Shown: positions 58 to 61,546 of the stretch, one piece after another
How the letters are laid out: the number at the start of each line of letters is the position of its first letter
How positions within the stretch are numbered: position 1 is the first letter of the stretch
From: Patiria pectinifera
Taxonomy: Eukaryota; Echinodermata; Asteroidea; Valvatida; Asterinidae
Direction of reading: 5' to 3'
Length of the DNA: 64,000 nt
NCBI GenBank assembly: GCA_029964075.1
Contig: CM057133.1
Span: 14,966,699 to 15,030,698, forward strand
Notes under the pieces: model-generated
Told to the model about the DNA's origin: nothing
The model's input: only the letters and a program-made list of their open reading frames with translations
Databases searched by the model: none
Made by a program: the position numbers and the translations under genes

Positions 58-195
58 CTTCACCAGAGTCATTTGGCGTTGAATGGATGCAATAGGCATT
101 GTAATCATGGCAACAGTCGCCGTAATTTGGGCAGACGGAATCACAGTAACAACCTCCTTGACTGCCGTCAGTAAAGCATCTGAACTGACATGAAG
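58..195 (-). CDS. SMB domain exon S59 (subtype A)
   Basis: 46 codons, starting [11 protein letters not shown] and ending [10 protein letters not shown] before a GTAGAT donor. A histidine follows the CC pair (CCHDY), as in its duplicate S48. The donor shows that the gene continues off the left edge of the window. Confidence 0.88.
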
Positions 196-3100: not shown

Positions 3101-6100
3101 AGTATCATTTTTTTATAAAACATCAAAGTACAGGATTTCAGGTGTTAAAGCGACAAGATTTGAGTTAAACCTTGAACTGTGGTATAATCTGCTAAGGTAC
3201 ATTTTAAAGTGTATACCAACTACCAAGTGATATCATCACAGCAGCCAGTGGATGACAAAATCTCTAAGTGCATGTCTTACTCTAGAGTCAATACAGGCCT
3301 ACAACATGTAAAGATGCATTTGAAAACTATCACGGAATCAAGGTTGTTCATTTATCATGTTGTATAACCGCATACGAAGCACATTTCAGGAATGTCCCTC
3401 ATCGAGATTGCGCAACCCCCCCCCCCTTAAATCGTTCCCGACGTTGGCAATTTACCTTCACCAGAGCTATCATGTGGATGTGAATGGACGCAATAGATAT
3501 TGTAATCTGGACAGCAGTCGCCAAAAGTTGGGCACACAGAATCACAATAGCATCCTCCTTGACTGCCCCATGTGTAACATCGGAATTGGCAGGAGGCTAG
3601 AGAGATCATAATAGTTAAAAATCTTTATAGCCTCAAACCAGAAATTCGAAGTTTCTTAGAAATAGATATTCATTCAACAATGATATACTATGATTCAGAT
3701 GTTTTGTCTCCTTTTACTCCAATATGTAAACAGAGAATTCCTACACCTCATCGTAATGAAAAACTAGGATGTCAAAATTTGGGCAACGGAATGACAATAA
3801 CAGGCTCCTCGACTGCTTTCAGTTGATCATAAAAAGACAAGAAATTGAGAATGGGCTGAAAAGAAACACGAGAACATTTGAACAGGAAGCCACACATATT
3901 TATTCTTGTGCAACTGGCTATGTGTTGCTTTCTCTCGGAGATAACACCTTGAAGAAGCAATGCCTGAAAATCCATCTCCAGAAAAAAAGTGAAACAGTCA
4001 ACAATTGTGGAAAAAGATGAAAAATTATTACAAAACTGATCGATAAGAGAAACGAAATCTGTGACCAAATTTACAACATCATATTCTCGTATATTCATTG
4101 GCTCTTTTTCATTGTGCAAATCATTTGTGAATCAAACTGAAAGAGCTATCACTTACCATCTCCAAAGACATCATTTCCAGGTGTGCGTGTACAAACAGAA
4201 GTGAAGTCCGAACAGCAGTCGTTAAAATATGTACACGCTGAGTCGCAGGCACATCCTCCTTGACTGCCCCAGGAGTAACATCGATCAACGCAGGTTGCTA
4301 AAAAGAGAGTGCGAGGATTGCTATTATATTTAATCTAATTTCATTTCATTAAAAACATTCCAAGAATTTCTCATACTGAAGTGAAGTCTGAACAGCAGTC
4401 GTTAAAATATGTACACGCTGAGTCGCAGGCACATCCTCCTTGACTGCCCCAGGAGTAACATCGATTGACGCAGCTCGCTAAATGGAAGACGTTAATGTTT
4501 AATAACACACCGACAACGACAGGTTTAATGTTAACGAGATTGCCTCATGGTTCAGGTAACCTTAATGATACCGAACCTATTCAGAAGAAAAGTTATTGAA
4601 CTTGATCTGATCAGACGCAAAGGCAAAAATAGATAATTGACAAACCCAAAAAGTTCACAATTCTTGGATTTTGATTTGATCAACATTTTACGATCACGTG
4701 TATGGGGAAAGACCCGCTTCTTCCTCCACCGCATCGGTGCTTGTGACAATGACACCTGCCTAAGTCGATCACCAAAGACAATAATCCTGCTATATCCTGC
4801 CCAATCTTCGTAAATTGGAAATTTACCTTTACCAGCGCCATAATGTGGATGTTTGTGGACGCAATAGGTATGGTAATCTGGACAGCAGTCGCCATAATCC
4901 GGACAGACAGAATCACAGTAGCAACCTCCTTGACTGCCCCATTGGTAACATCGGAATTGGCAGGAAGCTAGGACAAAAAGTTTTTGAAATTGAAATTTTT
5001 GATGACGAATGCTTAACTGTATTACACAGATTTCCCATCAAATTCAAATGAAGTTTCCCAATCGGCTACCATAAAAACCCTACAAGACAAGTTATTGTGT
5101 TCAGCAACTATGCGCAATAATTTAGGCACACACTAACAGTAAGAACCTCCTTGATTGTTGGGAGTCTAACATCACACACAACACGAAACTGCAAATAGGG
5201 CAGAAAAGAAGCGTGCAACAATAAAACTTTCAACATTGATTTCTTCATACTAACTTACTCAAGGATTGAAGACTTACAAAGTTAAACATCGAAAGCCATG
5301 TCAAATGAAGGCACAACTTATATAAGTTTCACACAATTTGAAAACAGAATCGATTTAAAAATAATTTACAAGATTCGCTCAGACGGATTGCATCTTCTCA
5401 AATATCACGACTACAATGTAAACTTTTGGAATGGACAAATACATTCCAATTTAACGATTGGTGGAAATCCAGTAGTTCGTTTGAGTTAAAAACCACTCAC
5501 CGTCTCCAAAGACATTATTTGCAGGTGAGCGCGTGCAAACAGAGGTGAAGTCTAAACAACAGTCGCCCCAATACGTACACGCAGAGTCACAAAAACATCC
5601 TCCTTGACTGCCCCAGGAGTAACAGCGATTAACACAGCTTCCTGAAATGACGATGATAAAGGTAAACCTGATTAAGTACCCAACTCAGAAATCTGCAGAG
5701 TAGAATAGTCCTCTACAGTTATACAATCTTGATAAAAACCAACTATGCCACACGTGTCATACTATCCTGTTAACTGCAACCGATTAATGAATCTCAAAAC
5801 AATGAGAGGCGACGTTAATAAAAAAAAACTCCTTTAAACAACTAAAAATTATAAGAGAATAAATGTGTGCTTTGCCGGTTTTAAACACTGTGTGTAAGAC
5901 CGGTTTGGAGTTTGGACGCTGATAATGACCATATTGATAATAGTAGTGTTTAAAACCGACCAAACATATAATCCTATTCATAAATACCCTTTTTCGGTCA
6001 GAGGGTCACAACAAGAAAGTCAATAAATTTACTTCATATTATTTTAAACACCCCTCTTGCTGTGTTATTGTACGTGCCTCTCGCGAGTAAATCGTAAACA

Positions 6101-39100: not shown

Positions 39101-42100
39101 AGAGGCATTTACCAGGCCTGAAGTAGACCTATTCTCGACTCACCGGTGTGTGCAAATGTGTCGTTATCACCATCTAAAGCATTTCCTGCTGGGTAGGATG
39201 AACTGTATGAGGTGCTTTGAGCGGCTGGCTTTCCAATGACCGAAAGAGCTTTAAAGATGAAAGAAATGAATCAACTTAAGTGGCGTTCATACAAATGCTT
39301 TGACACAATTATACAGGGTGAGTCCAAAAAAGCGAAACCCTAATGTCGAGACCATTGTTTTCTACATGTAGCACTTTCAAAATCTAGGATATGAAAGCCC
39401 AATTCATACGATTTCATTTAGTACAAGAATAATTCAAATCACTCATGTAATTTTCAAGTTGGTAATTTTAAACCTTAACCACCGTTTTAAAGTTCAACCA
39501 CAGATCACAAGAAAGGTAAGTGTTCTTTCAGCAAAATGAAAACAAATCCCGTAGGATGTGTGTGAGTTGTTTTTATTTTGCTGAAAGAACGCTCGTCTTT
39601 TTGTGATCCGTGGACAGAACTTTAAAACAGGGGTTGTGTTTACAATTCCTTAACTTGGAAAGTACTTGAGTGATTTAAATGATTCTTCTACTAAACGAAA
39701 GTTTATGAATATGAATTGGGCTTTTATATCCTAGAGTTTGAAAGTGCTATATGCAGAACTTCACTAAACAATAGTCACGACATATGGGTTTTGTATTTTG
39801 TGACTCGCCTTGTATAACAACACTTAAACTACATAATCATATAAGTACACACACAGATGACATTTTGTGCTTTGTATACGGGGTGAGTCAAACAGAAAGT
39901 GACCTGGATTACACATTTTTTTTCTAAAAAAGTAATCAAATTTTGACACACCAAGCAAGCATGTCCTAAAAGAGCATGTTTTTTCTTCCACTCATCTGAA
40001 GAAAAAAAAAATTAATGAAGTTGATCCATTCCATCAGAAGATAGCAGTACTCAAATAACCCATTTAATAGCTATTCAGAGAATGCAATAAGAAGCATTTG
40101 CGATTAGTGAGGATTATCTATGACACACAAGCATTCAAATACAAATGACATTTCAATAATTGAAATCGAGATTGAAACATGATTTTCACAGTCCGATTTT
40201 GTGTTTTGAATAAGAGGAAGAAGTAATCTCTCTTTTCCCCTGAAAAAGTGCTGGTGATTTTTGTTGATGTTTTCCTTTACAAGTTCTCGTTTATTCATTG
40301 AGGTGGGAAAATGTTCGCGTTTCATTGTATACTCGATGGGTCTGCATCAGTTCGTAGAACGGTACGAGATCACTGGCGGACAGCCCAGTTTTGTGTGTTT
40401 TTTTCACAGAAATAGACATAACCTTGGAATAGGGTATGCAAATTACGTATAATGTTCACAGTTAAAAGGTAAGAAGAGGTGCATTTTAATGAAATGAAGC
40501 AAGCCCAATAATTTAGATAATATTTTTTTTAAATGTGGCTTTTTTTTTCAAATACTGCCACCAATTTGTTGTAGAATTAAGTTAGTCCGCATTTTGTATG
40601 CAATCCATTACACACCCATGAACGGGTACAAGGCTAGTCTGGTTCTCTGACCTTACAATTCCCGGACGTCTATAAATTGCTCCGTTTCATCTGAAGTGGG
40701 GTCTGGGAACCAGACTACAAAAACAGGATTGTTTTTCTAGTATCTATGAACACAAAACTTCAAAAAAGTTAGTGAAACAATATTTGCTATAAAATATATA
40801 CCCCGAAATTGATCCATCACTGGAAAAAAAAGCAAAAGCAAATGCCGAATAATCCATTTAACAAGATACATGAACCGGGTCAAACATTAGACAAAGAAAC
40901 ACTTCAGCCCCCCCCCCCAAAAAAAAATAGCCAGAATAATAATGGAAAAATATACCTGTACAGTATATTTCGTCTTCTGGGAGCCTGCAACGGGACAGAA
41001 AATCTGAACAGCAGTCACCAAAATGTGTGCACAGTTCATCACAAAAACATCCTCCCTTACTGCCTTTGGAAAAGCATCGACCAGCACAGGTCGCTGTGGA
41101 GAAAGGACATTATGTCACATATATCAAATCTTTGAGGTAGCTCATACATTCTCATTGCGAGGAATTACAAGAATAATATGATTCTTCTGAAAGGGTCCAT
41201 GTAATGAATTTTTCCTAGGAACGCATTGTGTGTAACTGTCTACTCTTCGTAAATCTGTAGACAACGTTTTGATATCCCTTTTTCGGTTGATACGTTTTTT
41301 GAAAAGTGCACGTCTTTTCATGCTTTTCTGGTCAACTGAGGCTGCTGTTTTTGTGATGTCATTTCAGGAAAAAACTGTTCAGGTTATGGGTTTTGCGCTA
41401 TAATTGAGAGCCCAAAAAGTTGCTCAATGAAACGTTTGAGAACATATGTTGTGCACTGATCGTAAATATATGAAAACCATTTGATATCCCTATTTGGTTA
41501 ATATTATTGAAAAGTGCAGTTCTTTTCAAGCATTTTTCGACAACTGAGGGCGCTGTTGCTGCAATATCATTTCAGGAAGACACTGTTCAGTTATGGGTTT
41601 TCTGTTAAAAATTGTGAATCCAAAAATTTACTCTTTGAAAACATTTGTGAAAAAAGGTTGTGTATTGGAAGATTGTCATATACTGACACAATAACGAATC
41701 ACCAACGAAAAAATATACATCAGCAAAATATCCAAAATTCTGGCGTGCAGAAATATAGCTGCAACATTCAGATTTCTGCCTGAAATGACATCACAATTTG
41801 CTCGCAAATGCGGACATTTCATTAGGCACAAAAGTACCATAGAAAATGGCTAAATGCAAACTGAAAATAGGATTTAATTGGGACACAAAGGTGTTTTTTT
41901 TTCAAAGACTGCTGTCAAACCATTACAGGCCCTTAAAGTACGATAGGCTTTAATTTTTTAATAGAAGACGAAAAAACAACTCGACTTTGTATGCGGTGTA
42001 TAATCAAAACTACATTCTTTATGGTAAATTAAAAAAACCTTACAAGTCATCACAAATAAACAAACAAACAAACAAACAAACACCCCAACAAACAAACAAA

Positions 42101-45100
42101 TAAACAAGCAAACAAATTACATTACGAATTCTACCGTACCGTAGGATGCAGGGCATTCCGCATACGAGAACTCTTCCACGGCCACCTCAGCAAGCTGCAA
42201 GTATGCGTTAGTGACACCAGGCCTGGAAAGATCTATGTCCAAACTCACGTATCTGGACAACCGTGCTGGGTCACACGAGAATTCGTTAACTGCTCCAGTG
42301 GCAGACTGTTCAGCAGTTGCTGGTGAACCGCATGGTTGATTCTCTGAATAGCTGGAACCCAGTCCTGCGCGTACCACCGCCCCAAGGAATCGATTCTCCC
42401 CTTTAGAACGAGAAAAAAATATATGCAATTTAATATTACTCTTCTTTATTCAATAAAAGGGCAGTGTCGTTTGGTGTGCTATGGAACAGTGTCTATATTG
42501 TACATTGACATATTGACAATTTGCAAGATCAGTTCGTGCTACATAGGGACCCAAAAATGTTTATTTTCTCTCAATTTCACCAGCAAGTTCTTAGCTTGAA
42601 CTCAGCCCTGCGCGTACCACCGCCCCAAGGAATCAATCTTGGCCTGGTGGAGCGAAGAGAGTAAATAAAAAGTATGCAATTTAACCAGAATATTTCTTCT
42701 TGATTGATAAAAAAAATGCAGTGTCGCTTGCTGTGCACTGGAACAACATCTTTATATATTTATTAACAAATGGCAATTTTCAAAACTAGTTCATACTTTA
42801 TGGGGACCGCACAGTCTGTATTTTTCTCTGTCGATTTAACTTGCAAATTAGTTCCTATTGTTGCGCGTTTACTTATTTCCAGACGGATGTTTTGGGTGCA
42901 TACATGTACACACATGACGTCTTAGAAAAAAATTGTACTTAAATAACTTCATTGTGACTTGAAATGTACATTTCTTTCACTGTGCGTAATTCAAAAGAAA
43001 ATGAGGGGAAAAAAAAACGGTTCTCGATTCCGGACCAACTGTGTGAAATTTGTATGTGACTGAAGTCGAGGAACGCTTTGAACGTTTGACAGGAGGTGGT
43101 GGGGTGGGGAGGGATCTGCTGAAGGATGTAGGGTCCTTCGTCTGAAAGGAAGAAGACTATAATCATGACTAATCATACCACAACAGTCATGTCGGAGCGT
43201 GACGGTGATTGCACCCAAGCAGTGTTCGTCACCCAAATCCACTTGCCACCATGGATGCGAATCACCGGCTGTAATATCACGGGGAGAAAATGAGTATATT
43301 CATAGTGTAATGATGAAAATGAGGTTGAAGTCGTTAGAGAGTAGGACACTTCATCATGTAGAATAAAGCAACACGGTTGGCCAAATAGAGTTGGCCAGAA
43401 AAGTGTTGTAAATTAATTACTTTTATGTTCATCGGATGCTTTAACGCCTTAACACTACCAAATAATGATCTGGCTTCAAAGTATAAATTTAAAAAAAACA
43501 ATGTACATGATAACAGTCATTTCTTTAACACATTTTACACAGGAAAACACAAATACATTAATGCCTCACTTAAAGTGTGAAAGAAAGTAGCGATACTGCC
43601 ATCGATCGCATTTTCTGCAGGAAATGTAGCGGAACTGGTGCTTTTAGAAATTGGAAGTGGCTTTCCGACGAGAGAAAAATCTTCGGAGAAAGAAAAAAAA
43701 AAGATAAGATAAAATAACAAGAAATCATATCAAAGCATATTTTTACAAGATGATGTGATGAAGCACTTTTGAGATTTACACTACAATGGAGAAACTAGGA
43801 ACACCATTGCGCACTAAAGGAGAATTTTTTTTTTTCCCCCCAACTTTCACTCGGGAGGTAACACGCTGAGTATACGTGTTTATACGTCGGTGTAGGGCAA
43901 AACCTAAATTGAAGAACTTCCCCTACAAAACTTGCATAACCGTCAATTAAACAGATATATGACAGACGTTTGATTCCAATCACTTACCCCCATCGGTAGC
44001 ACACTCCAAATATGGGTATTCCAGCAGGGTCACCTCAGCAAGCATCAAGACTGCAAAGGTAACCCCAGGCAAAGATGGATCTATGTCCAAACTCACATAT
44101 CTGGCCGACAGTGGTGGGTCACACAGGTAATTGCTAACTGCACCATTCACAGACTGGTCTGCTGTAGCTGGCGAGCCACATGGTTGGTTCTCTATGTAGT
44201 TTGAGCTGTGACCGGCGCGAACTACAGCACCAAGGAAACGATATTCTCCTAAAAAACGAGATGATCAAAAAAATATCATGGAGAGTTAACTAAAAATACT
44301 TATGAGGAGTGTGACAAAACATGGGCAAGTCTTTGAAAATAAATTTAAAAGATAAAAACAGGATTTTGTTATTCTATATGGGTGTAAAACACAAGCACTA
44401 TGACATATTGATTCATTTACATTCTGTTACCAATTAATGAATGCAACAGACATAATATCGAATTAACCTCATTTGCTTATAAAAGAAAAAACTCAATAAA
44501 AGTGTTAACAATGAAATTGGTTTTAACCCTAGTCTTTGATCTTCACAGAGTTTTTTCATGTGACTGCAATTATACAGTTTACCCACCGCAGCAGCCTTTT
44601 CGTATACTGACAGTAACTCTTCCTAAACAGTGATCATTCTCCAAGTCCACTCTCCACCATGGATGCGAATCCCCAGAAGTGGCTGCAAAGTAACAAGGAT
44701 TGCAAATTATTACAACGTCTTATTTCACCATAATGATATAAAGAATGAAGCATGCAGGGAAGATATTTAACTTGCTGCAAAGTATTAAACAAGGATTGCA
44801 AATGTGTAAAAATATTATTGTATTACGTCTTATTTTACCATGTATCCAGGTGCTGGCGTGATATTAAACTGAACTGGTCAATGCAGGCTTGATAATTAAA
44901 CTTAATTGTTCAATGCTGTAATCATTTATTGCAACGGACAACGACAGAAATCGAAGAGGCATATACCAGGCCTGAAGTAGACCTATACTCGACTCACCGG
45001 TGTGTGCAAATGTGTTGATGTTACCATCCAAAGCTTTTCCTGCTGGGAAGGATGAACTGTAAGAGGTGCTTTGAGTGGCTGGCTTACCAATGAGCGAAAG

Positions 45101-48100
45101 AGCTTCAAAAAAAGGAAATAGAAAACTGAATGGCATGACCATCTTGCCACTGTATTGGCACCCAGTAAATAAGAAACTTAAATAATGGTACGTACATTGT
45201 ATAACCATGATAGTTTTGTATTGTTTTCAACATGGATATGAAGTGATTGAAATAAAGAAGATGCTGAGTTTCACATAGCCAACTCTATGTTAAGCACGTC
45301 TACATAACTTGTCATTAACCGTACAGGCGCCAAAGGCGCCAATCAAGACAGAAAAACTCGTTAGTTGTGAATAGCAAACAACCCATATTGAACCTCTAGG
45401 GGAATATGAAAGTTATATATACTACCGGTACACGTGTATATAGGGCGACCGCTCCATAGACACATGTACACAATTTACAAAACTGTGACCTAACCCAATT
45501 TTACCTTAATATCCGACCCAAACAAAATTTTGTATTTTACGTTTTGGACCAAAAGCGATCGATTAAACCAAATTACGACAACAAAATTCTGTGGCTATCT
45601 AGTACTTTTGCGTTACGACAACCGGCAAAATGTCGCCATTAGGACGGTGGTTGCCTTAATGCCGCAAAAGTAAGCACAACCGGTCACCACATGAAATTAG
45701 AAGTGTTTATGTACCTGTGCAATATATATCGTCTTGAGGAGGCCTACAATGGGATTCAAAATCTGCACAGCAGTCACCATATTGTGAACACAATGCGTCA
45801 CAAAAACAACCTCCCTTGCTGCCTTTGGACAAGCATCGATCAGCACAGACCGCTGTGGGGAAAGAAAAATATGTCTTCATTCAGAACAAAATGCCAAAAT
45901 TGCATGAAATACCGCTTACAATAAGCTCAACTCAAAGCGTCATTCGGTAAAGAACCAGATATTTTGTGTCCATCTGGCCCACAGACAATGCGAATTTTGG
46001 TATTTGCAAGTAGAGAATACGGGACTTGGGCACGATGCGCCCTCTGAATATATTTTGTTTACACAATAATAAGGCATCAACGCTGTCAACAGAAATTAAG
46101 TTCTTACAATTGTTTTTACTTTATCGAAGGCCAGATGAATACGAACATGAATATTTAACGGTTTGTCCAATAGGCCTAGGCCTATACCAATGTGAATTTT
46201 AAAAAAAATACAGCCACAATTTAAGTCACCTTCTGGATGTAGGTGAAAATGTAATATTTTAGATAGATATAATTAAACTATATTTGATGATTTACCGATA
46301 ATGGGCCACAAGGCAAACATTCCCATAGACTTGTAAACATATTTTCCCCAACTTTTATGACATCTAACCCCAAATTTACCTGATCATACTCCATGAATTT
46401 TGGTATTTTTTACTAATACATTGTAATTGGACCCCGTGCAATCGATCCAACTTATTAGGGAGACATTTACATGTCCATTATTATGCTAAACTGTTTGAGA
46501 ACGCTCGGCCGATTAAAATCATGCTACTAGATAAACGTTTTGTAAACATTCGATGTATGTGTAGGAAATAACTTCAAAAGTATTTCATCCTATATTTCAT
46601 TTTATTTCATTTCAGAAACATTTATTTCCACATGAATAAGCACTTTAGAAAACAAAACAATTGCTACATGAAAACTACTAAGTGGAGGCATTACACAAGA
46701 AGCCGGAGCTTACAAACGGAATGCCTTAAACACACAAAAAATATATATATAAACAATACTGAAAAAGGAAGACTAAATTCAAAGACAAAACACAACAAAA
46801 CAATGAAACAGAAACAGACAAACAAACGAAGTGGACATCAACTTAATATTCTTTACAGACGGACATACTAAACATACTAGAGAGACAACGACACAGTTTA
46901 TAAAATGGACGATGCAAGCAAAATAATAAGCAAAAATATTCATCTGGTTTTGTCATACTGACCATTCGAGAAAAAAAAAAAGATTGAAATATTAAGTAAA
47001 AAGTATCAGCTCCTTCAAATAAAGAATTAATTGCTCATATTATGTTCGTACCGTAGGATGCAGGGCATTCCGCATACGAGAACTCTTCCACGGCCACCTC
47101 AGCAAGCTGCAAGTATGCGTTAGTGACACCAGGCCTGGAAAGATCTATGTCCAAACTCACGTATCTGGACAACCGTGCTGGGTCACACGAGAATTCGTTA
47201 ACTGCTCCAGTGGCAGACTGTTCAGCAGTTGCTGGTGAACCGCATGGTTGATTCTCTGAATAGCTGGAACCCAGACCTGCGCGTACCACCGCCCCAAGGA
47301 ATCGATTTTGGCCTGGTGGAGCGACAAGAGTATAATATTACTCTTCTTTATTCAATAAAAGGGCAGTTTCGTTTGGTGTGCTATGGAACAGTGTCTCTAT
47401 TGTATATTGACATATTGACAATTTACAAAATCAGTTCGTGCTTCATGGGGACCGCAAAAATGTTTATTTTCTCTCAATTCGACCAGCAAGCTCTTTTCAT
47501 GCTGACTCTTTATGTGGTTTTAGATGGATGTTTTAGGTACATGACTTTTTCTATATTTTTTTGCAATTTGTACGATATCATTTTCCACGCAGGGTGCCGA
47601 AAAAGTCTCAAGTTTTTTCACTAATCAAAAAGGTTGAAGTAAACTAATTGCTATTTTACTTGTAACAAAATTTTTAGAGTTTTCGATTGATTCCGAAGAA
47701 ATGTAGAAAAAAAAAATCTTTTAAAAATTGTGGCGAAGGTCATTCCACCACAGGTTTTTTAAACCAAAAAAAATATTATCAACAAAAAGACGTTTTGCTG
47801 TTAAAAAAAGGAAGAAAATAAAACACGCATCAGATTTATAATACGTTGCGCAGCTACGATTTTTTTTTTTTTTTTAATTTAGCCTAAGTACGCAACAAAT
47901 TCGTTGCTTCAACACCTGCGTAAACATGGCGCAAGTTATGCACTGTTTCGTGAAAAGGCTGGCGGTTTGTGAGGGATAAAACTAATAACAATCAATCATA
48001 CCACAACAGCCTTGTCGGAGAGTGACGGTGATTGTACCCAAGCAGAGCTCGAGACCCAAATCCACTTGCCACCACGGATGCGAATCATCGGCTGTAATGA

Positions 48101-51100
48101 CGGGTAGAAATGAATGGCTTAGTTAAGTTGAAACAACAATATGATTTTGTATCTAATTCAGAGTAGGATAACTCATCGTGTAGAATGAGGCAATTACTTT
48201 TATGCTCATCGTATACTTTTCAATTTCTTAACACTATACCAAAGTTTGATCTGATTGGGTTTTTTTTAATTGCATATGATGACTGTCATTATACACAAGG
48301 AAGAATGAACACATTTAATGTCTCACTTATAGTGTGGAAGAAAGTATTGATATCGCCATCGATCGCGTTCTCTGCATCAAACAAAGCGGTGCTTTTGGAA
48401 ATCGGCAGTGGCTTTCCAGCAAGAGAAAAAGCTGCGAAGGGAACAAAAGAAAACATACGATGAAAAGAAATCAAAGAAAGTGGCATTTTTTTCATAGGAT
48501 GACGTTAATAAAGCACTTAAGAGATTGACAATACCATGGCGAAACATCCTAACTAGGAACACAATAAAAGGGCATTACGGCTTAAAATTCCCAAAAACTG
48601 TATGTTTTGGACTGTTATACTATTTGAAATGTCTGGTTGGAAGGTAATTAACCTAATGACTTATTGTTCCTGGAAAAAAACACCTGGTTGTTTACATCGG
48701 ACGCGGCAAATTGTATACGTACGTATACGTATTTCCAGCCGTTTCCTTCAAGTGACGTTGTCACAACTAACACTCAACTAGTACTCAGGAGCAACATTTT
48801 TGAGAGTCAAAATATTAATGCCTCTGCTTCAGTGCTGCGTTAACAGCCTCTGGAGGGTTATAAACACGCAGGCGTAGTGCTGGCAGCAAGATAATTTATA
48901 GTTTAGAGGGTAAGCGTGGTTTTAAGAGGTCTTTGCCATCCAAGGCTAACAAGTCTGATTTAAAGGTGTCAGCAGCAGTGGCTTCCTGTATGGAGTGTGG
49001 AAGACAGTTCCACTCTTGGATTGTTCGTGGAATGGGGGAATGTTTGTTACAGTCTTTTTTTGGTATGAAGTGGGATGAACGTAGAGTTTTGTGTGCAGCC
49101 CCGAGTTGATCTATTGGATGTTTTGGGTAGTTTATCTTCCTGGAAAGCTACCTTGCTATTTATGGCCATTATGGCCGAAATTCGTTCTCGCATGGTTCGA
49201 ATTGCAAGAATAACACAGAAAAACCCAGATTTTACAGGATGAATGCATAATATGGACGTTTATATCCTACCTTCAAATGCTCTTTCTAATTAAAGTATTT
49301 CGCTCAAAGCGCGTTTTGTTGCCAATTGTGTGCATTCCTGGACGTAATGTCAATTTAAACATTAAAGGAAGAAGATCTTCTGATAGCATGTAACCGTCAA
49401 TAAGGGAATAAATGTGTGCTCCGGAGGTTTTTATCACTCTGTTTAATACCACTTAGAGTCTGGGTGCTGATAATTACCCCAGCCGGAGGCGAGGGTAATT
49501 ATCAGCACCCAGACTCTAAGTGGTCTTAAACAGAGTGATGAATACCGACGGAGCACATATTTATTCCCATTCATAAATACCTTTTCGGTAAAAAAAAATC
49601 AAATAATTCGTTCAAAACATCCCGATTTTGTTCAACAAATTCACTTCATGCTTTTCGAAACATCCCTCTTGCAAAATAATGGAGTGTTCAGCTGGCGAGT
49701 AAGATATAAAACAACCCTTTTATGGAGATTGACGCGCGCGAATCATGTTCTGCGCGAAATCGCGCAGAACGCACCTGGCGCGTTGCGTTTTGAATTTAGA
49801 ACTATAAAATTTTGACTCCCTGGTAGTGTTGCGCATGCCTACGTGAGGATTGTGAACGTTCAACCAATGAAACGATAAGAGGCCCTGGATTTTTAGGAGT
49901 CCACATTTTGTTGTGACACTGGAAAAGTGTTTAAGACCAGCTATCCATGTCTTTATCATCCGTTTAAGACCGGCCACGTGACGGGCTCTCGACCAATAGG
50001 AATAGCTAAACTGTCTGAGGTATTTATGAATAACAGATAATGATTGATGTTTGATTCTACATCAATTACCTCCATCAGTAGCGCACTCCAAATAGGGGTA
50101 TTCCAGCAAAGTTACCTCGGCTAGCATCAAGAATGCATTAGTGACCCCAGGCGTTGATGGATCAATGTCCAAACTGACGTATCTCGTCAACCGTGTTGGG
50201 GCACACAAGAAATCATTAACTGCCCCATTGGCAGACTGTTCATCTGTAGCTGGTGAACCACATGGTTGGTTCTCTGCGTAGTTTGAGCTTAGACCGGCAC
50301 GTACAACAGCACCACGAAAACGTTTCTGTCCTAAGAGTGAATTGATCGAAAAGATCCTTATCAAAAAATAAAACACTTGATGAATAAAGGGCAAGACTTA
50401 GAATAAACCTTCAAAAATAATATGTGAAAACTGTTTTGGATTCTTACATGTGAAGTTGAACCGTGTATAAGCACAATGTGTAAGTATTTGGTATTCTAAA
50501 TTCATCCCATGACATGATATACATATTCCTATGCGCATACCCCTATGCAAGATGGTTTTTTTAAATCGATTAGACAATGAAAAGAACACTCTTTGTAATG
50601 ATATACTGATCTTGAATCGCTGCAGTTTTCAGTGTTATCAAGCGCTTCATTTTGACAATCCAAAACTTGATAAAACGTACGGCTGACCCCTCAGCTAATT
50701 CAACATCACGTGCTGGTGTAATTCCCATTCACTTTTTCTTATAAGTACATCAACTTCACCTCTGTTCACCCAATATTATGATTGAATCGAGTTATTCTTC
50801 ACATAAATTGGTAAGAGTGAAATAGGTCTTAATCTACAGAATACTTTCGGATAACCGCAATTACATGTATTCGCTTAACTCACCACAGCAACCTTTTCGG
50901 AGACTGACGGTAACTCTTCCTAAACAGTGGTCATTCTCTAAGTCTACTTTCCACCATGGATGCGAATCCCCGTTGGCTGCAAAGTAACAAGGATGCAAAG
51001 AAAAGTCCTATTTCACCATCTGATTTTAAGAATGAAGCATAATGTAGAAACCACTCTACAAAAAATGAATAATGATTAAGCTGCTGCAAACTGCTCACTG

Positions 51101-54100
51101 ACTGGATTGATCTGAAATATACAAATCAAAAAGTTGGAGAGGCCTGAAATAATTATTTCGTCTTTAGCAAAGACCTCTTCAAAAGCAAATGACACACGGA
51201 CAAGAAACAAACATGCAGGGGCATTGCAGACAGGCAGGGTTGGTCAAAGACGAAATGAAACATATCGGGCCTCTGTAACTTTTTGATTCACTTTACAAAC
51301 AGTAAATTTTGCAAATTATGTCCAGGTGCAGGCTCGATATAAATAAACCTGATTCTTCAATGCTGAAAAAATTTATTGCAACAAAAAAGACTGAAATCGA
51401 AGAAGAATCCCAGACCCAAAGTAGGCCTGTTCTCGACTCACCGGTGATTGAAACTGTATTGATATATGATATTCTGCTGCAGCATTAAACTAGACTCACC
51501 GGTGGTTGCAAATGTGTCGGTATCACCATCTAAAGCTTTTTCTGCTGTGTAGGCTGAACTGTGAGTAGTGCTTTGAGTGGCTGGCTTTCCAATGATCGAA
51601 AGAGCTTTAAAGATAAAAGAAACTGAATCAAGAGGCAATCATCCAAATGCATTGAAATTGAATAACAACTTTTGTGATTCTCTTTTCAAGTATTATTAAT
51701 TACCGATAATGGATAACCTATGATGCATTCCCATACACTAAGTGTGCACACCTTTGCTTTCCAACTTGAATCTCAACTATAGCCAATCCCAAATTTTACC
51801 AAGGGTGGATTCAGAACACGATTGGGGGGGGGGGGCAACAATAAGTTGGTCCCCCAAAAAGTAGGTCCAAAAAATTTGGGCAAGAGGTTCGAGGCCAGTT
51901 CAAGGGCCCCAAAAAGAATTTTTTTTGTGGATTCTAGATGATCTAGGGGGGCGATCGGAGGCAATTTCTGACCAATTTAACCATTTTTTTTTTTGAAAGA
52001 TGGTAGTTTACGCAGTTCCTGCCTTAATTTTGACGTCACTTAATACAAACAAAAATTGGGTTCGTTTTGGGAAAGGCCATGGCCCTGTTTCCCCCCCCCC
52101 CCTGGATTTTACCTTATCCAACCCCCACGAATTCTGGTATATATACGTTTTGGATCACGAGCAATCGACCTAGCCTGTTTGCGACATTAAAGGTTTTGCT
52201 CTAAATATAGGAGCTGAGACATTAGGGAGACCTTGAAATGTCTCCCTAATGTCCGGTGTCTCCTAAGGTATAACGACAAAATGTCTCCTTAAGGTGCCAT
52301 TTAGGGTAATACATATAAAAAAACAATAACAATTAATAAATCAATCTTATACTTGTTTAGTGCAAAACATAACAGAAATATATCTCAATGCACTGTACAA
52401 TATTGGACATGATCTGAATGTACAAAACTTAGAGACACTTTCATGATGTGTAGTTATAAGCCTGGTAAATTTGGGGGCGGGGGGTTCAGGGTGGATTTGA
52501 ACCGGTCCAAAGTGTCTACAGATTGAAGAGGCCTGGGGTTGGAAGTGAGTTCCACAGCCTAGGTTCAGTGTGTGAGAATGTCTTTGAGCCATATGAGTCA
52601 CTCTATTATAAGAGTACAACTAATAATGGTAAATCTGTGATATTTCCTTTTTAAAAATATTCTGCTAATGAAGCAAACTACATGTGGTATCGTCAAAAAT
52701 TGTAGAGGATCACTACTTATATATTAGCCCACATAACACAGACGCCAAATACCTCTACAATAAACATCGTCCTCCGGGAGCCTGCAACGGGATTCAAAAT
52801 CTGAACAGCAGTCACCGTACTGTGAGCACAACGAGTCACAAGAACATCCTCCCTTACTGCCTTCGGAAAAGCATCGACCGGCACAAGTCGCTGTGGGGCA
52901 AAGAAAAATACGTCTCCATTCAGAGAATGTAGCATGCTGATGTTTTTCATCTTAAAACTGTTGCCAACAGACTACGAACGTTGAATCATTGCTTATCATG
53001 TTAGGACCTAGAGAGAAAACATGGGCAACGTTGGCTGAAAGGCCAGGTGTACTGACGCTCCCTCCCCCTCCCCCAACCAATAAAATAAAGACAGCGAGAA
53101 AGAGAGAGACGTGGATCGGACTGGTTCAGAAAAATGTTGTTCTCTTTCTCTCTACCAAGTCCTTTATTTGTCCTCATCCGGACCCGTAAAAAGAAAAAAA
53201 TCATGTTGGGTATTTTCAATAATCAATCCATAATGCTGAAGCCAATCCAATTGCAATTTGGGAGACTTTTTCTGAAATTGTTGTCGTCATTTCCGTATAA
53301 AAAAGAAGAATTTTGCGGGACGGATGTCACTGGGAATTAGTGTGATAGGTCAATGATAGTATAAGGTCTCAATTAATATTAGTTACGGTTAGACCAAGGT
53401 TTGAGCCTGTCAAACATCCTCTTTAGCCAAGAGGATGCTCTCTCACTGAATTCCAAATCATGGTGGTTTTGTGACAGCTCTCTGTATTCTAAAGCCACGG
53501 AATAACTTCGGGAATGTGCCACAACCCAAAACTAAGATCATTTTCAGCAAACAAATACGTTTACTGCGTTCAATCGGCATATAAGTGTCATCCAAACTGG
53601 TCGGCAGATAATATAACCAATAAACAATTCACTGATAAACGATAAACGGAAACCAATAAATATATCTATCGAACGAACGTTGTCGTACCGTAGGTTGCAG
53701 CACATGCCGAATACGAGTACTCTTCTACAGTCACTTCAGCAAGCTGCAAGATTGCTGTTGTGACTCCAGGTCTGGAGATATCTATGTCCAAGCTCACGTA
53801 TCTGGCCAAGCGTGCTGGGGCACACAGGAACTCACTGATCTCCCCAGTGGCAGACTGTGACGCCGTAGCTGGTAAACCGCACGGTTGGTTCTCTGCGTAG
53901 TTTGAGCTCAGACCTGCGCGTACCACCGCTCCCAGGAATCGGTTCTGCCCTATAAACAGCAACAGCAATGATAAACAAAAATAATTCACTGGCTCAGTTC
54001 ATCTCTTCATAAATTATCGATGATTCAAAGGTCTATTGAGTGGAATGTTACATTTATTTCTGGTAGACTTTATTTAAAAAAAAAAGGGAGTTATATTACC

Positions 54101-57100
54101 ACACTACTTTTTTTCCTTTGTATTTTCAAAGGGAGGAATTGTTGGAAGTGTATTTCAGGAACATCATCATTATTTTCTGTTAAAAACTATAGATAGTTTG
54201 CTAAATCAATTCACACTTTCACCTGTGATGAATGGTTGTCTGTGATAACTGTTTTTTGTTTTGTTTTTTTACACTAAATTTTGGATGACCGTTTTTCGCG
54301 CAGTTTACATAAACTGAAGTTGATAAATAGAAATAGAAGCTCATTTTGGACGGTGAAAATTAATGGTAGCCTTAAAATATAGCTTTTCCAATTCCGGGGT
54401 CAAGAACTTTGCAAATGCATGAGGCTTGTTTTTTCAATCAAAAAGATGTTTCACCAAAGTCTCACGCTGTACAGTCGAGATTTGAAGAAGGGTTGGAATC
54501 TGCCAAAGGCTGTAACAGTGAGTCAAACACGGGGTTAATAATGCATACTAATAATGGTCAAACATAATACCACAACAGCCTTGTCGGAGCGTGACGGTGA
54601 TTGTACCCAAGCAGTGTTCGTCACCCAAATCCACTTGCCACCAAGGATGCAGATCGGAACTCCCTGTAAGGGAAAAAAAGGTTGATGTTTCGATACTGAC
54701 GATTGATATTTTGATGCAGATTAAGTTGAAGTAAGCTTCAGACAATTGTATGTAACATTCAAAGAAAAGAAACTCATCAACAAGAATGGAGCAATCGCTT
54801 TTATTTTTGAAGGGTTCTTTTCAATTCACAACAATACCAACTGAAACATAAAGGAGCATGAAGATTTAAGATTGCTTTGACGATTTGCACGATTGGTGTA
54901 CACTAGGGAAAAAAGAAATACAGTGCAATTTCTCACCTGAAGTATGGAAAAAAGTATCATTGTTGCCATCAACCGCATTTGCTGCAGAAAAACCACCTAA
55001 CACGGAGCTTCGCGAAACTGGCTTTCCAATGATAGAAAAGGCTTCAAATTAAAAGAAGATAATTATTATTACATTTAGCCAATAAAACAATTCCAAGACA
55101 AATAACAATAAGGAACGATACATAACAAACAGAACAGCACAGAATATAAGACTAAACCATAATAATTATAATGGCATGAGGAGGGAGAAAAAGAACATCA
55201 TTATAGTCCGTTGACCTAACCCAGAGGCAGACATAGAAAAATAGAAATAGATAACAATATATATTAAAATTTGAATTGTATGTGTAAAATTAAGTACACA
55301 CACTAAAACAGTAATATAAATAAAAGAGGCACACAATGCATAAAAGGGAGAGAGCGAAATTAAAATCGAGTTATAAAATAACGTAAACAAACAACAACAG
55401 TGACTGCAATATCACTACACCAAAATGAAACGACAGGAACATTGCACATCAAAGGAAAACAAAACACAAGCGGGATAAGGGGCAGATGAAACACAAAACG
55501 ATAACAAATTAACACACTGACTAGCCCTAACCATGACCTGACCAAAATGAGCAAACCATCATACAAAACAAGCCTGCCTTTTAGTGTTAAATACAATTAC
55601 CAGTTTGTCCTTTAAAAAACAGTGATTTTGTTTGTTTGATGGGTCGTTGGGTTTGTCTGTTTGGTTGTTTGTTCATATAATTCTGGGTGTCGTTTGATTC
55701 TGCAGTCTGGCTGGCCAGTTTTGTGCCTTTTATGAGTTCGAAATCACTTACCCCCATCGATAGCGCACTCCAGGTATGGGTATTCCAGCAAAGTCACCTC
55801 AGCAAGCTCCAGGATTGCTTCAGTAACCCCAGGCAAGGAGGTATCTATATCCACACTCACATATCTGGCCAACCGTCGTGGGGCACACAGGAAAGCATTC
55901 ACTGCCCCAACGGCAGACTGATTTGCTGTAGCTGGCGAACCACATGGTTGGTTCTCTGCGTAGTTTGAGCTTAGACCGGCACGTACAACAGCACCAAAGA
56001 AACGGTCGTTTCCTAAAAGAGAGAGATTCGAAAAGATCACAATCAAAAAGATAATATTGCATGATAAAGATAGTGATGGCATGCTGCGACCAGACCAAAT
56101 CTTAACACATATGCCGTACTGTCGTTTAACTGCTTTTACAGAAACAAAATAATCCCTTTTCTTCGAATTGCTTATAATTTTTTTTTTAAGGGCCAGAAAT
56201 AGTGATTTTATTTTATTAGGGCAGGTACGGTAGGCATATAGGTCGAGTAGATTGGTTATTTGTTATCGGAAGGCAGGGGCTATAAAAAAGACAGGACACT
56301 TTTCGTACATTCTCGCACTACTTAAATAATGTGGAAACATGGTCGACCAGCTGTTGTTTATAAAAAAAAAGGGAAGTTATTTATATGAATACATTGGTCC
56401 ATCAAACAGCCGTTACATGTGGCTCAATAGTTAACATAAAACAGTCGTAAAACCAGACACCCAAGGAGAATTCCCTTTTGTACGCAACGATCCCCATTTG
56501 CTGTACACACGCAGTACAATGTACGTGGCATTCAATGAACGTTTTTAAGGCGTAGGCGTTGTCAACTTCAAATTTCAAGGGGGCTGCAGGGCATCTCCTA
56601 GTTAACTTATTGTAACGAAACCTGGCGAAGTTCTCGACCTATTATCAAATTTTTAGACCTGTTATTAAAGTGCCATGTAAAGCTGATGATGATGATGATA
56701 AAGGCAAAGGCAAGTTATAGACTAATTAAAAGGCATGCGAGAGCAGGGGCGGAGCCAGGAGTTGTTGCAGGGGTGGGGGGTCAGGCTCGACAGATTGTTT
56801 TATGTCCGATTGTTGCGGACAGGCAGAATGTCATCTTTTGTCATCTCATTATTATCATATTTTTTTTTAATGTTAGTGTGAGTGTCAGAGCAGGGGAGTG
56901 GGGGGGGGGGGGGAGTTCGCGTCTGCGTATAGAAAGTTACTACCTCCATCGTTTGATATATTGCCATCAAAAGAGTTGACAACCCAGTCAAGGACACATG
57001 GCATCCTCGGCTGTGTCTCAAGTGTCATGCGTCCCTAGGCCAATGTGAATAACAACCAATTCTATATTCTTTCCAGTAATTCTATATTTACCTTCTCCAT

Positions 57101-60100
57101 TTGTCGGCTCTGAGCACTCCACCCCAGCGTCTTCGTGATGCCCGCAGTTTTGCTGCTGTATGCCATTATGCGAGCAGTCGAAGATGGAACCCTCTTGCCC
57201 CGTGCATGCCACATTGTCCAGCTGTATCGGTCCCTGTCCCTGGCCGTACGCGGCGTTCGTGGCCGCTGTCACGGCCGCTCCGAAGCCCAGCTCACGGCAG
57301 ACCACGTTGGCGTCGTTCAGGTCCCACTGGTCGTCGCACACGGTGCCCCACTGGCCGTTGGCGTAGACCTCCACTCGGCCTTCGTACATGGACCCTCCGT
57401 CCCGTAGACGAACTGCCGGATAGGTAAACGGATATTAATTGGCAATAAGCAACAAAGAAAAAAGGATATCTGCGTTTTGTTCGTAGAAGATAATGAAATT
57501 AAGTAGAGCTGGCATAGTAACTTTGTTCCAAGATGGTCCCTTCTCGAAACTTGCAATCTATGCCGTACTGTCGTTTCACTGCTTTTACAGAAACAAATTA
57601 TTCCCTTTTTTCGAATTGCTTATCATTTTTAAAAGTGCCAGAAATGGTGATTTAATTTTATTAGGGCAGGTACGGTAGGCGTATATGTCGAGTAGATTGG
57701 TTATTTGTTATCGAAAGGCAGGGGCTATAAAAAAAGACACTTTTTGTACATTCTCACACTACTTGTTAGAAAATTATGTGGAAGAATGGTCAACTAGCTG
57801 TTGTTTATAAAAAAAGGAAGTTGTTTCGTAAAGTTTCGTCAGATATACAAAGTGAGTCAAGAAAGTTACCAAATCAATAAATTTAAGCATTTAAATTTGA
57901 TACACAAATGAAGTTAAAAGAGCATGTCCTTCCACTCATCTGAATTTTTTTTTACTGAAATTGATAAATGCTTTCAGAAGTTATGAATCTTTTACTACAA
58001 GAACCCTTGTTCGTGACTGTCTCTATTAAATGCCACTGGAAGCTGTGGAGCAAAGTAAGAATTCAATATTAGACACAAAATTAGGCTAAAATACAATTTG
58101 TTACTGTCCGATTTTGTGTTTTGAATAATATGAGGAACATAATGTTCATTGCGATTTTTGTATGTTTTCGTTGCCAGTTTTCGTTCATCCGAGGAGGCTG
58201 GAAAACGTAAATGATTCGTTGTATTTAATGGGTATTCATCAGTTCGTAAAACGGTGAATGATCAGTGGTGGACAGCTGAGTTTTGTGATCTTATAATTAA
58301 AATAATTTGGGAATGGAGTACGCAAATGACGTGACATTTTCACAAGTACTAGTCAATAACATGTATGGATCCAGGGGTAGTATTTTATGTGAAATCAACC
58401 AATTTGCATAATTAGTGATGTTTGTATTGATGTAAATTAATTGGTAATGTTTCTCAACTCAGTCGTGTGCAAACTGTTATTACAATAATAATAATAGTAA
58501 ATATTACCCTGGATTGGACATTTTGGGAGACATCCCCATAGACTTGTGCACAAAAATGTTTCAAACTTAAATGTGCCCTAACCCAATATTCCCTTGTCCT
58601 TTTCCCACGAATTTCGGTTGGTTTACTAATTAGACCACGAGCAACAAATATAACCTAATTGCGACAAAATTGTGATTCACATGTCTCTCTAATGACCGAT
58701 GTCTCCCATCGTGCGAAGAAATTACGATAACGTGTCTTTACACGTATAATAATAATAATAATAACAGCACTTATACAGTGCACAGTATCTGCCATAAAGT
58801 GCCATGATGGGCTATGCTGTGTTCTGAGGTCAAGCGGTAATTCCATAAACGGGTTGCAATATAAAGAGAAGGCTATTTCACATTGGGGTTATTGTAAATG
58901 CAATTTTGCGTTTGCTCGCCGTCTTTGAATAAACACACTGTAGACTCGGGATCGGTTGGCCGATACATCATATTCAAACTGCATATTAACTCCTATTCAC
59001 ACTCACCGCAGCAGCCCTCTAGTCCGAGACTGACAGTAACTGTTCCCAAACAGTGAACATTCTGTAAGTCCACTTGCCACAATGGATGCGAATCCCCTTT
59101 AGCTGCAAAGTAACAAGGATTGGAAGAAATACTACAGTCTTATTTCGCCACATGAATTTAAGAATGAAGCATGGATTGAAGAACAATATCTGAAAACTTT
59201 ACTCACGGATGCGAATCCCCAAGATTGACAGCAAAAAATAATTAAAGATTGGTAAAATTTTGAGAGTGCATTTCACTGCACGATTTTGAGAATGAAGCAT
59301 GCACTTTGCAAATGCAGCGTCTTGTAACTACTGTCCATTGCTGAAATTTATTGCAACAAACAAAGGGAGTATACTCGCAAACGAATCTCACATGTGGAGT
59401 TTAAGTATTTTTGCTGCAGTTTATAGACTCACCAGTGAGGGAGAATGTGTCGGTACTACCATCTAAAGCATTTCCTGCTGCGTAGGCTGCACCGAAAGTG
59501 GTACTCTGTGTAGCTGGCTTTCCGATAACCGAAAGAGCTTTAAATAAGTCAGAGAAGGCCAGGTGAAGTGATGATGGGGTTCATAGTTATGAGAGCATTG
59601 ATACTGATAAGAAATGTCAACTGCTGAAATGGTACAAACAATGCGGAAGGCATATTCATGACTTCAACATTAGGCAAAATGAATTCAAAATAATAAGCCC
59701 TATGGAAATTATACACATGACTCAGGGGCCTACTATATTGACTGCTTCGAGTGGTTTTACATAGCTGCCAACTTTTCAAAATCCCAATTAGTAATCAACC
59801 CGCGCGGTCATTTTCAACTGCTCGTTTTATCAAAAGCTTTACCAACATCGAGTACAGGTACATGGTTTACACGTACACATACATGTGCATACCCTTCTTG
59901 TTGTGAATAATAATGTACAGTAGGCCAAAAGATAATTTTAAAATGGCAACAAAAAAATTTAAAAAAAATTAAAAAAAATATTTTTATTTTTTTTATTAAT
60001 TTTTTTTAATGTCTGTATTTGTTTGTTGAAGTCAAATAAATAATAACAATAATAACATGTGCGCATACTTTTTTGAGATGCATGCTATCGATGTGGAGTT

Positions 60101-61546: not shown

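Follow-up and report, generated by a model that had tools for sequence, protein, structure and literature searches.

A candidate MUC4-like membrane mucin with a stalk built mainly of SMB modules, predicted from the genome of the sea star Patiria pectinifera

Introduction

MUC4 is described as having a C-terminus of NIDO, AMOP, VWD (with a GDPH motif), EGF and transmembrane (TM) parts beneath an N-terminal stalk that is both very large and extended (PMC8660890, PMC9080433). Its paralogue SUSD2 is cut between the D and the P of GDPH; the two halves stay disulfide-linked, transport to the surface requires the cleavage, and MUC4 is reportedly cut at the same site (PMC6696261). GDPH cleavage in this pair of proteins is also treated in a second account (PMC8660890). 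F-type lectins, which are relevant to the other end of the protein discussed here, are characterized by the fucose-binding motif HX24RXDX4(R/K), and copies that depart from it are said to have other specificities, or possibly none (PMC5712786).

Here we describe a locus in the 613.5-Mb assembly of the sea star Patiria pectinifera at which exons for somatomedin B (SMB) and F-type lectin (FTP) domains continue in frame into a MUC4-type C-terminus. We found no annotated protein of similar architecture in searches that were each limited to one length range and to shared 5-residue words, and no published account of such a protein by title or opening abstract among the matches listed from the openly licensed literature.

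Results

The stretch of DNA that we analyzed (the window) comprises 64,000 nucleotides, C5:14966699-15030698, and the surrounding 234 kb (C5:14836699-15070698) were fetched in addition. An earlier sequence-only reading of the window had counted 59 SMB and eight FTP domains in one orientation and one splice phase, arranged as a fourfold SMB-FTP-FTP unit followed by at least 55 SMB domains. Both the count and the order hold, with all domains on the minus strand in phase-1 exons, and the outer limits of that reading, positions 58 and 61546, are exon ends in our model. The HMM scan of spliced pieces that it had suggested gave Pfam matches to SMB (7.8e-17, and 1.2e-16 for an SMB pair), F5_F8_type_C_2 (PF22633; 4.1e-24) and SRCR (6.9e-34), and there were no Rfam matches to RNA genes in the window. 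The features of the window, in the order of transcription, are:

61487..61546, minus strand, N-terminal linker exon, phase 1-1
60849..60974, minus strand, SMB 1 (unit 1), 8-Cys pattern
55752..59537, minus strand, FTP 1, three exons (59537-59433, 59102-59007, 56012-55752)
57092..57412, minus strand, SRCR exon, phase 1-1, between FTP 1 exons 2 and 3, Pfam match as above
53689..55041, minus strand, FTP 2, three exons
52753..52890, minus strand, SMB 2 (unit 2), 8-Cys pattern
50070..51604, minus strand, FTP 3, three exons; alternative first acceptor at 51622
47052..48431, minus strand, FTP 4, three exons
45715..45852, minus strand, SMB 3 (unit 3), 8-Cys pattern
43988..45102, minus strand, FTP 5, three exons
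42140..43680, minus strand, FTP 6, three exons; sole copy with R-X-D
40956..41093, minus strand, SMB 4 (unit 4), 8-Cys pattern
38136..39248, minus strand, FTP 7, three exons
36607..37596, minus strand, FTP 8, three exons
58..36461, minus strand, SMB 5-59, 55 single-exon domains in the window, 8-Cys pattern
4371..4477, minus strand, SMB exon that looks decayed (early stop, no donor), immediately upstream of an intact SMB

The possibility that the window holds the whole gene was rejected: in the 234-kb region the gene overruns the window at both ends, and the array and the C-terminus continue outside. The earlier proposal of a giant protein is supported by the sequence in its architecture and in the single-gene reading (a 231-exon frame, a 145-bp intron and purifying selection), but the window contains only part of it. 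Our gene model, predicted from the DNA, is a single open frame of 231 exons that spans 174,008 bp (~174 kb) of the minus strand and encodes 10,402 aa without a stop, or 10,295 aa without the SRCR exon; 224 of its 230 introns are in phase 1. The predicted product without SRCR has a mass of 1.10 MDa, a pI of 4.1 and 1,358 cysteines. From the N to the C terminus its modules are four SMBs within the FTP units, 148 SMBs, 24 copies of a Thr/Ser/Pro-rich (PTS) exon, two further SMBs and the C-terminal part. Two long open frames flank the gene; judging by eye, we take the one on the minus strand at C5:14848.6k to be a hexokinase, and the one on the plus strand at C5:15061.8k is, on the same footing, presumably an HTH-type protein.

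Outside the window, at C5:15041986 and 13.7 kb upstream of the linker exon, lies a signal-peptide-like exon (MTRISSSGIFLLLVTTLFMTTSVTVSAL) with a donor score of 8/8 and an A-X-A-like cleavage site, at the position expected of the 5' end; the 13.7-kb first intron that it implies is our choice. Five signal-peptide-like exons in phase 1 were found on the minus strand of the 234 kb, and only this one combines such a donor with such a site, while all nine plus-strand candidates have donor scores of at most 6/8. A scan of the minus strand in three phases, limited to short exons that begin with ATG and score at least 6/8 at the donor, gave 22 phase-0, 5 phase-1 and 4 phase-2 candidates, and most of the phase-0 ones appear to be SMB exons read out of frame. 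None, in any of the three phases, falls between the last SMB before the PTS tract and the first NIDO exon. A stretch that resembles another copy of the signal-peptide exon (MARMFFFGIFSFLVTTPCMTTL) is present at C5:15037627, 4.4 kb downstream of the first; it is absent from the phase-1 candidates but appears among the phase-0 ones, where its donor scores 6/8.

On its minus strand, the window has 59 exons with the full eight-cysteine SMB pattern, each domain being one exon, and every one of the 59 has an AG acceptor 5 nt ahead of its first cysteine and at least one in-phase GT donor. The intact copies outside the window likewise have an AG acceptor and an in-phase GT donor. Across the 234-kb region the minus strand carries 154 intact SMB exons and the plus strand not a single one, by which we rejected a chance origin of the patterns; the count takes in one intact copy, at C5:14904533, that the pattern scan had missed. 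The exons extend to C5:14888816, the last two of the 154 sitting after the 24 PTS exon copies. The array is interrupted by a gap of 500 N, so that this assembly puts the number of SMB exons at 154 or more. All eight cysteine columns are invariant in 154/154 domains, although, as the exons were chosen by their cysteine pattern, this chiefly says that only three broken copies were found alongside. One of these three is the 60th copy of the window, with its first cysteine at 4472, which looks like a decayed exon because it has a stop at its end and no donor; the other two lie outside the window. Altogether, the SMB exons encode 7,162 aa with 17.3% cysteine, a pI of ~4.1 and 23 N-glycosylation sequons.

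Two SMB types alternate along the array (67 of type A, 82 of type B and 5 others), and similarity between SMB exons is highest at a distance of 11 exons. Pooling 113 nearest pairs gives a dN/dS of 0.149; the value is 0.139 within type A and 0.173 within type B. Self-matches of at least 1.2 kb within the array have offsets of 6-20 kb, and among the 15 listed, 14 are 92-97% identical and one is 82% identical. We rejected an assembly artefact since these are not identical duplicates. We also rejected the idea that the genome has several arrays of this kind, as the SMB matches away from this locus, among the 150 scored of 276 candidates, occur in small groups only. A search of an array-type SMB exon against proteins returned no candidate with three common 5-residue words in the length range covered. 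One array intron, on the 3' side of the window and outside it (C5:14940760-14948640), is unusually long at 7.9 kb and contains a same-strand open frame of 1,821 codons, whose resemblance to a retroelement polyprotein suggests an insertion.

Each of the eight FTP domains is split across three phase-1 exons, and the intron that leads from FTP8 to SMB5 is only 145 bp long. In searches against solved structures, one FTP matched eel agglutinin (1k12; 1.3e-15) and FBP32 (3cqo; 2.6e-17). All 28 FTP pairs have dN/dS between 0.14 and 0.43; on these ratios the SMB and FTP exons are under purifying selection. Synonymous distances (dS) split the FTPs into an odd set (1, 3, 5, 7) and an even set (2, 4, 6, 8), with FTP8 the least clear-cut, which is what duplication of a three-domain unit would give. 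The SRCR exon, which is flanked on both sides by a 279-bp direct repeat (87%), must be skipped for FTP1 to be contiguous. At the fucose site, FTP1 alone lacks H and R together (in FTP3 only the H is missing), which suggests that FTP1 is degenerating. An extra fragment of FTP exon 3 among the FTP6 exons, at position 42632, is probably a decayed duplicate.

The strict fucose motif is found in none of the eight FTPs, although its spacing is a poor test, given that by our own count 1k12 has 26 rather than 24 residues between H and R. Read from the alignment, H is present in 6/8, R in 7/8, D in 1/8 and the CC pair in 8/8 domains, and only FTP6 has H, R and D together; on this account, the label of lectin for the protein is uncertain. 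For the cation motif h2DGx (h = V/A/I), DG followed by N, D or S is present in all eight FTPs, with a strict h2 in three (AV, AI, AI) and AL in the other five. A form with RQGCC or RHGCC is common to these domains and to the FTPs of a 5014-aa protein of another sea star, Acanthaster planci (P0033, LOC110982186), and the set therefore reads, by its sequence, as a sea-star subfamily rather than as random decay.

The PTS block repeats a 21-aa exon 24 times, as GPTSGDDQGPTTASPGDGGPG or with slight changes; most copies sit in units of 423 bp, and together they form a short tract of ~500 aa that is predicted to be O-glycosylatable. All 24 copies have an AG acceptor and a GT donor in phase 1, and the 423-bp tandem array that holds them, at C5:14891600-14902700, amounts to 22.8 units by TRF. 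A second potential exon in each unit keeps its AG acceptor in only one of 24.

The C-terminal part comprises 24 exons and 1,313 aa without an inner stop and ends at C5:14867979. It encodes, in this order, NIDO (Pfam 1.5e-27; score 97.3 against a cut-off of 25 bits), an AMOP-like region, VWD (5e-10) with GDPH in the VWD exon (SSGDPHVRILDG), C8-3_MUC4 (PF23263; 3.7e-11), EGF-like exons (EGF_CA; 2.1e-38), a hydrophobic segment and a tail. For the AMOP-like region there was no Pfam match at E<=0.01, and the locus is absent among the 32 matches of a whole-genome AMOP search; hhalign, in contrast, aligned ten sea-star sequences with the matching region of PF03782-bearing proteins (from amphioxus, rotifers and metagenomes) at 97.3% and E 2.2e-11. 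The last exon carries the hydrophobic stretch LSTLDIVLISLGLLVVLLATVGIILGIVYLLRR followed by the tail, and it aligns to the homologue P0008 (tblastn, 1.45e-9). Sushi (PF00084) is absent among the 11 Pfam families matched by the C-terminal part. The acceptor that we chose for the first NIDO exon is the second-best site; a better-looking one upstream gives phase 0 instead of phase 1.

The C-terminal part is 49% identical to a 'mucin-like protein' of Patiria miniata (800 scored residues); the nearest proteins in the search came from this sea star and, next, from Acanthaster planci. With 12 homologues as tblastn queries, 22 of its 24 exons were matched, all on the minus strand and collinear with the queries, and the VWD_b and EGF5 exons had no match at E<=1e-3. 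GDPH is present in all 11 MUC4-like homologues checked. By motif, four of these 11 (P0002, P0003, P0004, P0009) have a single SMB ahead of NIDO or VWD, and Pfam's precomputed list names two of the four. The same four give small tblastn matches in the array. HYR domains, which Pfam lists for P0002 and P0003, have no match between the PTS block and NIDO here.

Other MUC4-like genes of the genome cluster at ~8.3-8.4, 14.5-15.2 and 22.5-23.2 Mb of chromosome 10, with further copies on C780 and C762. One paralogue on chromosome 10 has one SMB followed by the P0002 exons in order. For seven of the nine chromosome-10 SMB matches listed, a NIDO/AMOP match lies 6-14 kb downstream on the same strand, and among the NIDO/AMOP matches listed for this chromosome 8/15 have no counterpart among the SMB matches listed. 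The best copies of P. miniata P0001 in the genome are 93-94% identical in its top exon and 81-98% identical in other exons.

Discussion

We consider it probable, on the basis of the sequence, that the locus is one 174-kb gene whose product is a type-I membrane glycoprotein of giant size, belongs to the MUC4/'mucin-like protein' family and would be cleaved and brush-forming. A membrane-tethered MUC4-like mucin with a mainly SMB stalk is the most likely product, and a free secreted opsonin less likely, because the frame continues into a MUC4-type C-terminus of NIDO, AMOP-like, VWD, EGF and putative transmembrane parts. One alternative splits the locus into two genes, i.e., a secreted FTP-SMB protein (opsonin or matrix) and an independent, downstream MUC4-like membrane gene in the same orientation. 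On its own, the C-terminal part does resemble shorter members of the family in their larger, C-terminal portion; a boundary could lie at the PTS tandem block; and the acceptor that looks better for the first NIDO exon is out of phase with the SMB exon before it. One gene is nevertheless supported by the single frame with nearly one phase throughout, by the 145-bp intron that joins the FTP part to the array, by the lack of a signal-peptide candidate between the last pre-PTS SMB and NIDO, by the two post-PTS SMBs, which have the phase of the array, and by the relatives that have an SMB motif before NIDO or VWD within one protein. We therefore regard two genes as improbable. A single locus that makes many isoforms is an unlikely though serious alternative, in which alternative phase-1 exons would yield much shorter membrane proteins and the full-length chain would be made rarely or never. 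The frame survives any subset of the exons bounded by phase-1 introns, and the SRCR exon needs skipping in any contiguous FTP1. Against this stand the conserved cysteines of all 154 SMBs and their pooled dN/dS of ~0.15, which argue that most SMB copies are used often enough for selection to act on them.

The sequence-only reading had suggested a secreted lectin or opsonin; FTP heads would then bind fucosylated microbial glycans, and the SMB rod would cross-link. The matches of an FTP to the eel and striped bass lectin structures, the CC pair in all eight copies and the first R in seven would fit such a function, and ectodomain release by GDPH cleavage is conceivable. However, the frame runs into a hydrophobic, membrane-anchor-like exon in the MUC4-type C-terminus, and the fucose site is mostly incomplete, above all in the D of RXD. 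These observations weaken a free-standing secreted lectin; the proposal is not supported as stated, and we rate it as quite improbable. The second part of that reading, a mucus or matrix protein whose stalk is made of disulfide knots, comes close to our best explanation. A structural adhesive, e.g., a tube-foot footprint protein that, like Sfp1 of sea stars, forms a large multimodular polymer rich in disulfides, would share part of the domain repertoire, in that the footprint proteins of sea stars include VWD, C8, EGF, FA58C and D-galactose-binding lectin domains according to a legend (PMC9382459). The words somatomedin and NIDO are each absent from the main text of that paper (PMC9382459), and footprint proteins are secreted, so that an adhesive of this kind seems very improbable.

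If the locus does produce one membrane-tethered MUC4-like protein from a single transcript, a signal peptide would lead the ectodomain and the FTP/SMB heads would lie at its far end. The heads may be followed by a rod of ~150 SMB knots with short linkers and then by the short Thr/Ser/Pro tract, and NIDO, the AMOP-like region, VWD with GDPH, C8-3, the EGF repeats, a transmembrane helix and a short tail would be arranged near the membrane. By analogy with MUC4 and SUSD2, a cut at GDPH in the secretory pathway would split the product into a giant alpha chain and a beta chain that stays bound to the membrane. On the surface of an epithelium or cuticle, the alpha chain could then stand as a brush of great length, negatively charged and resistant to proteases, whose FTP tips would bind ligands multivalently; for the extended stalk, half a micrometre or so is only an estimate. 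Mature proteins may hold far fewer modules, since exons that are in phase 1 at both ends can drop out and leave the frame intact.

It is tempting to go one step further and to propose a new type of surface mucin, in which, in an asterinid sea star, ~150 disulfide-knotted SMB modules, amplified as an 11-exon higher-order repeat, have largely replaced the O-glycan-dependent PTS stalk of a MUC4-like protein. Such a protein would be a strongly acidic, protease-resistant megadalton brush with lectin-fold tips, sheddable at GDPH and quickly changeable in length and sequence by segmental exon duplication; we advance this tentatively, the doubts somewhat outweighing the case for it. If it is made as a single chain, this would be a membrane-tethered extracellular protein of very large size (~1.1 MDa predicted) and an extreme SMB protein, with 154 SMBs compared with 0-1 in the 11 MUC4-like relatives examined. 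If true, a folded cysteine-knot module can largely build a mucin stalk in place of a disordered glycosylated tract, an unusual way of building a cell-surface coat that is known so far from DNA alone. The gene would also link MUC4-like mucins with the FTP/SRCR giant of Acanthaster and offer a test case for ongoing higher-order-repeat evolution inside coding exons.

Among known systems, human MUC4 is described as having a like C-terminal layout beneath a large stalk. The tandem-repeat domain of MUC4 is a PTS domain and dominates its large subunit, whereas here the PTS tract is short and the stalk consists mostly of SMB knots. SUSD2 has one SMB, and its solved piece 2cqw matches an SMB pair only weakly (E 0.0017); it also carries a Sushi domain, a family that had no match here. 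Eel agglutinin (1k12) and striped bass FBP32 (3cqo) share the F-type fold family with the FTPs by sequence, but 1k12 and the first FBP32 domain read R-G-D-C-C, and seven of the eight FTPs described here are without that D. The Acanthaster protein P0033 is the only match to an FTP exon within its length range (55%) and has a signal-peptide-like start, the same FTP subfamily in tandem, and SRCR domains. Its layout is FTP, EGF and a long SRCR array, with no SMB by motif and no NIDO or VWD in the Pfam list. It is a second giant FTP protein of sea stars and hints at a possible source of the SRCR exon of the window. The mucin-like proteins of asteroids (P0001 and P0002 of P. miniata, P0003 and P0004 of Acanthaster planci) likewise have NIDO, an AMOP-like region, VWD with GDPH, C8-3_MUC4 and EGFs, and P0003 also has a Ser/Thr/Pro-rich stretch near its N-terminus. 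P0001-P0009 are 1145-2243 aa long, with 0-1 SMB and no FTP by motif, whereas the gene described here has 154 SMBs, eight FTPs and an SRCR exon in ~10,400 aa.
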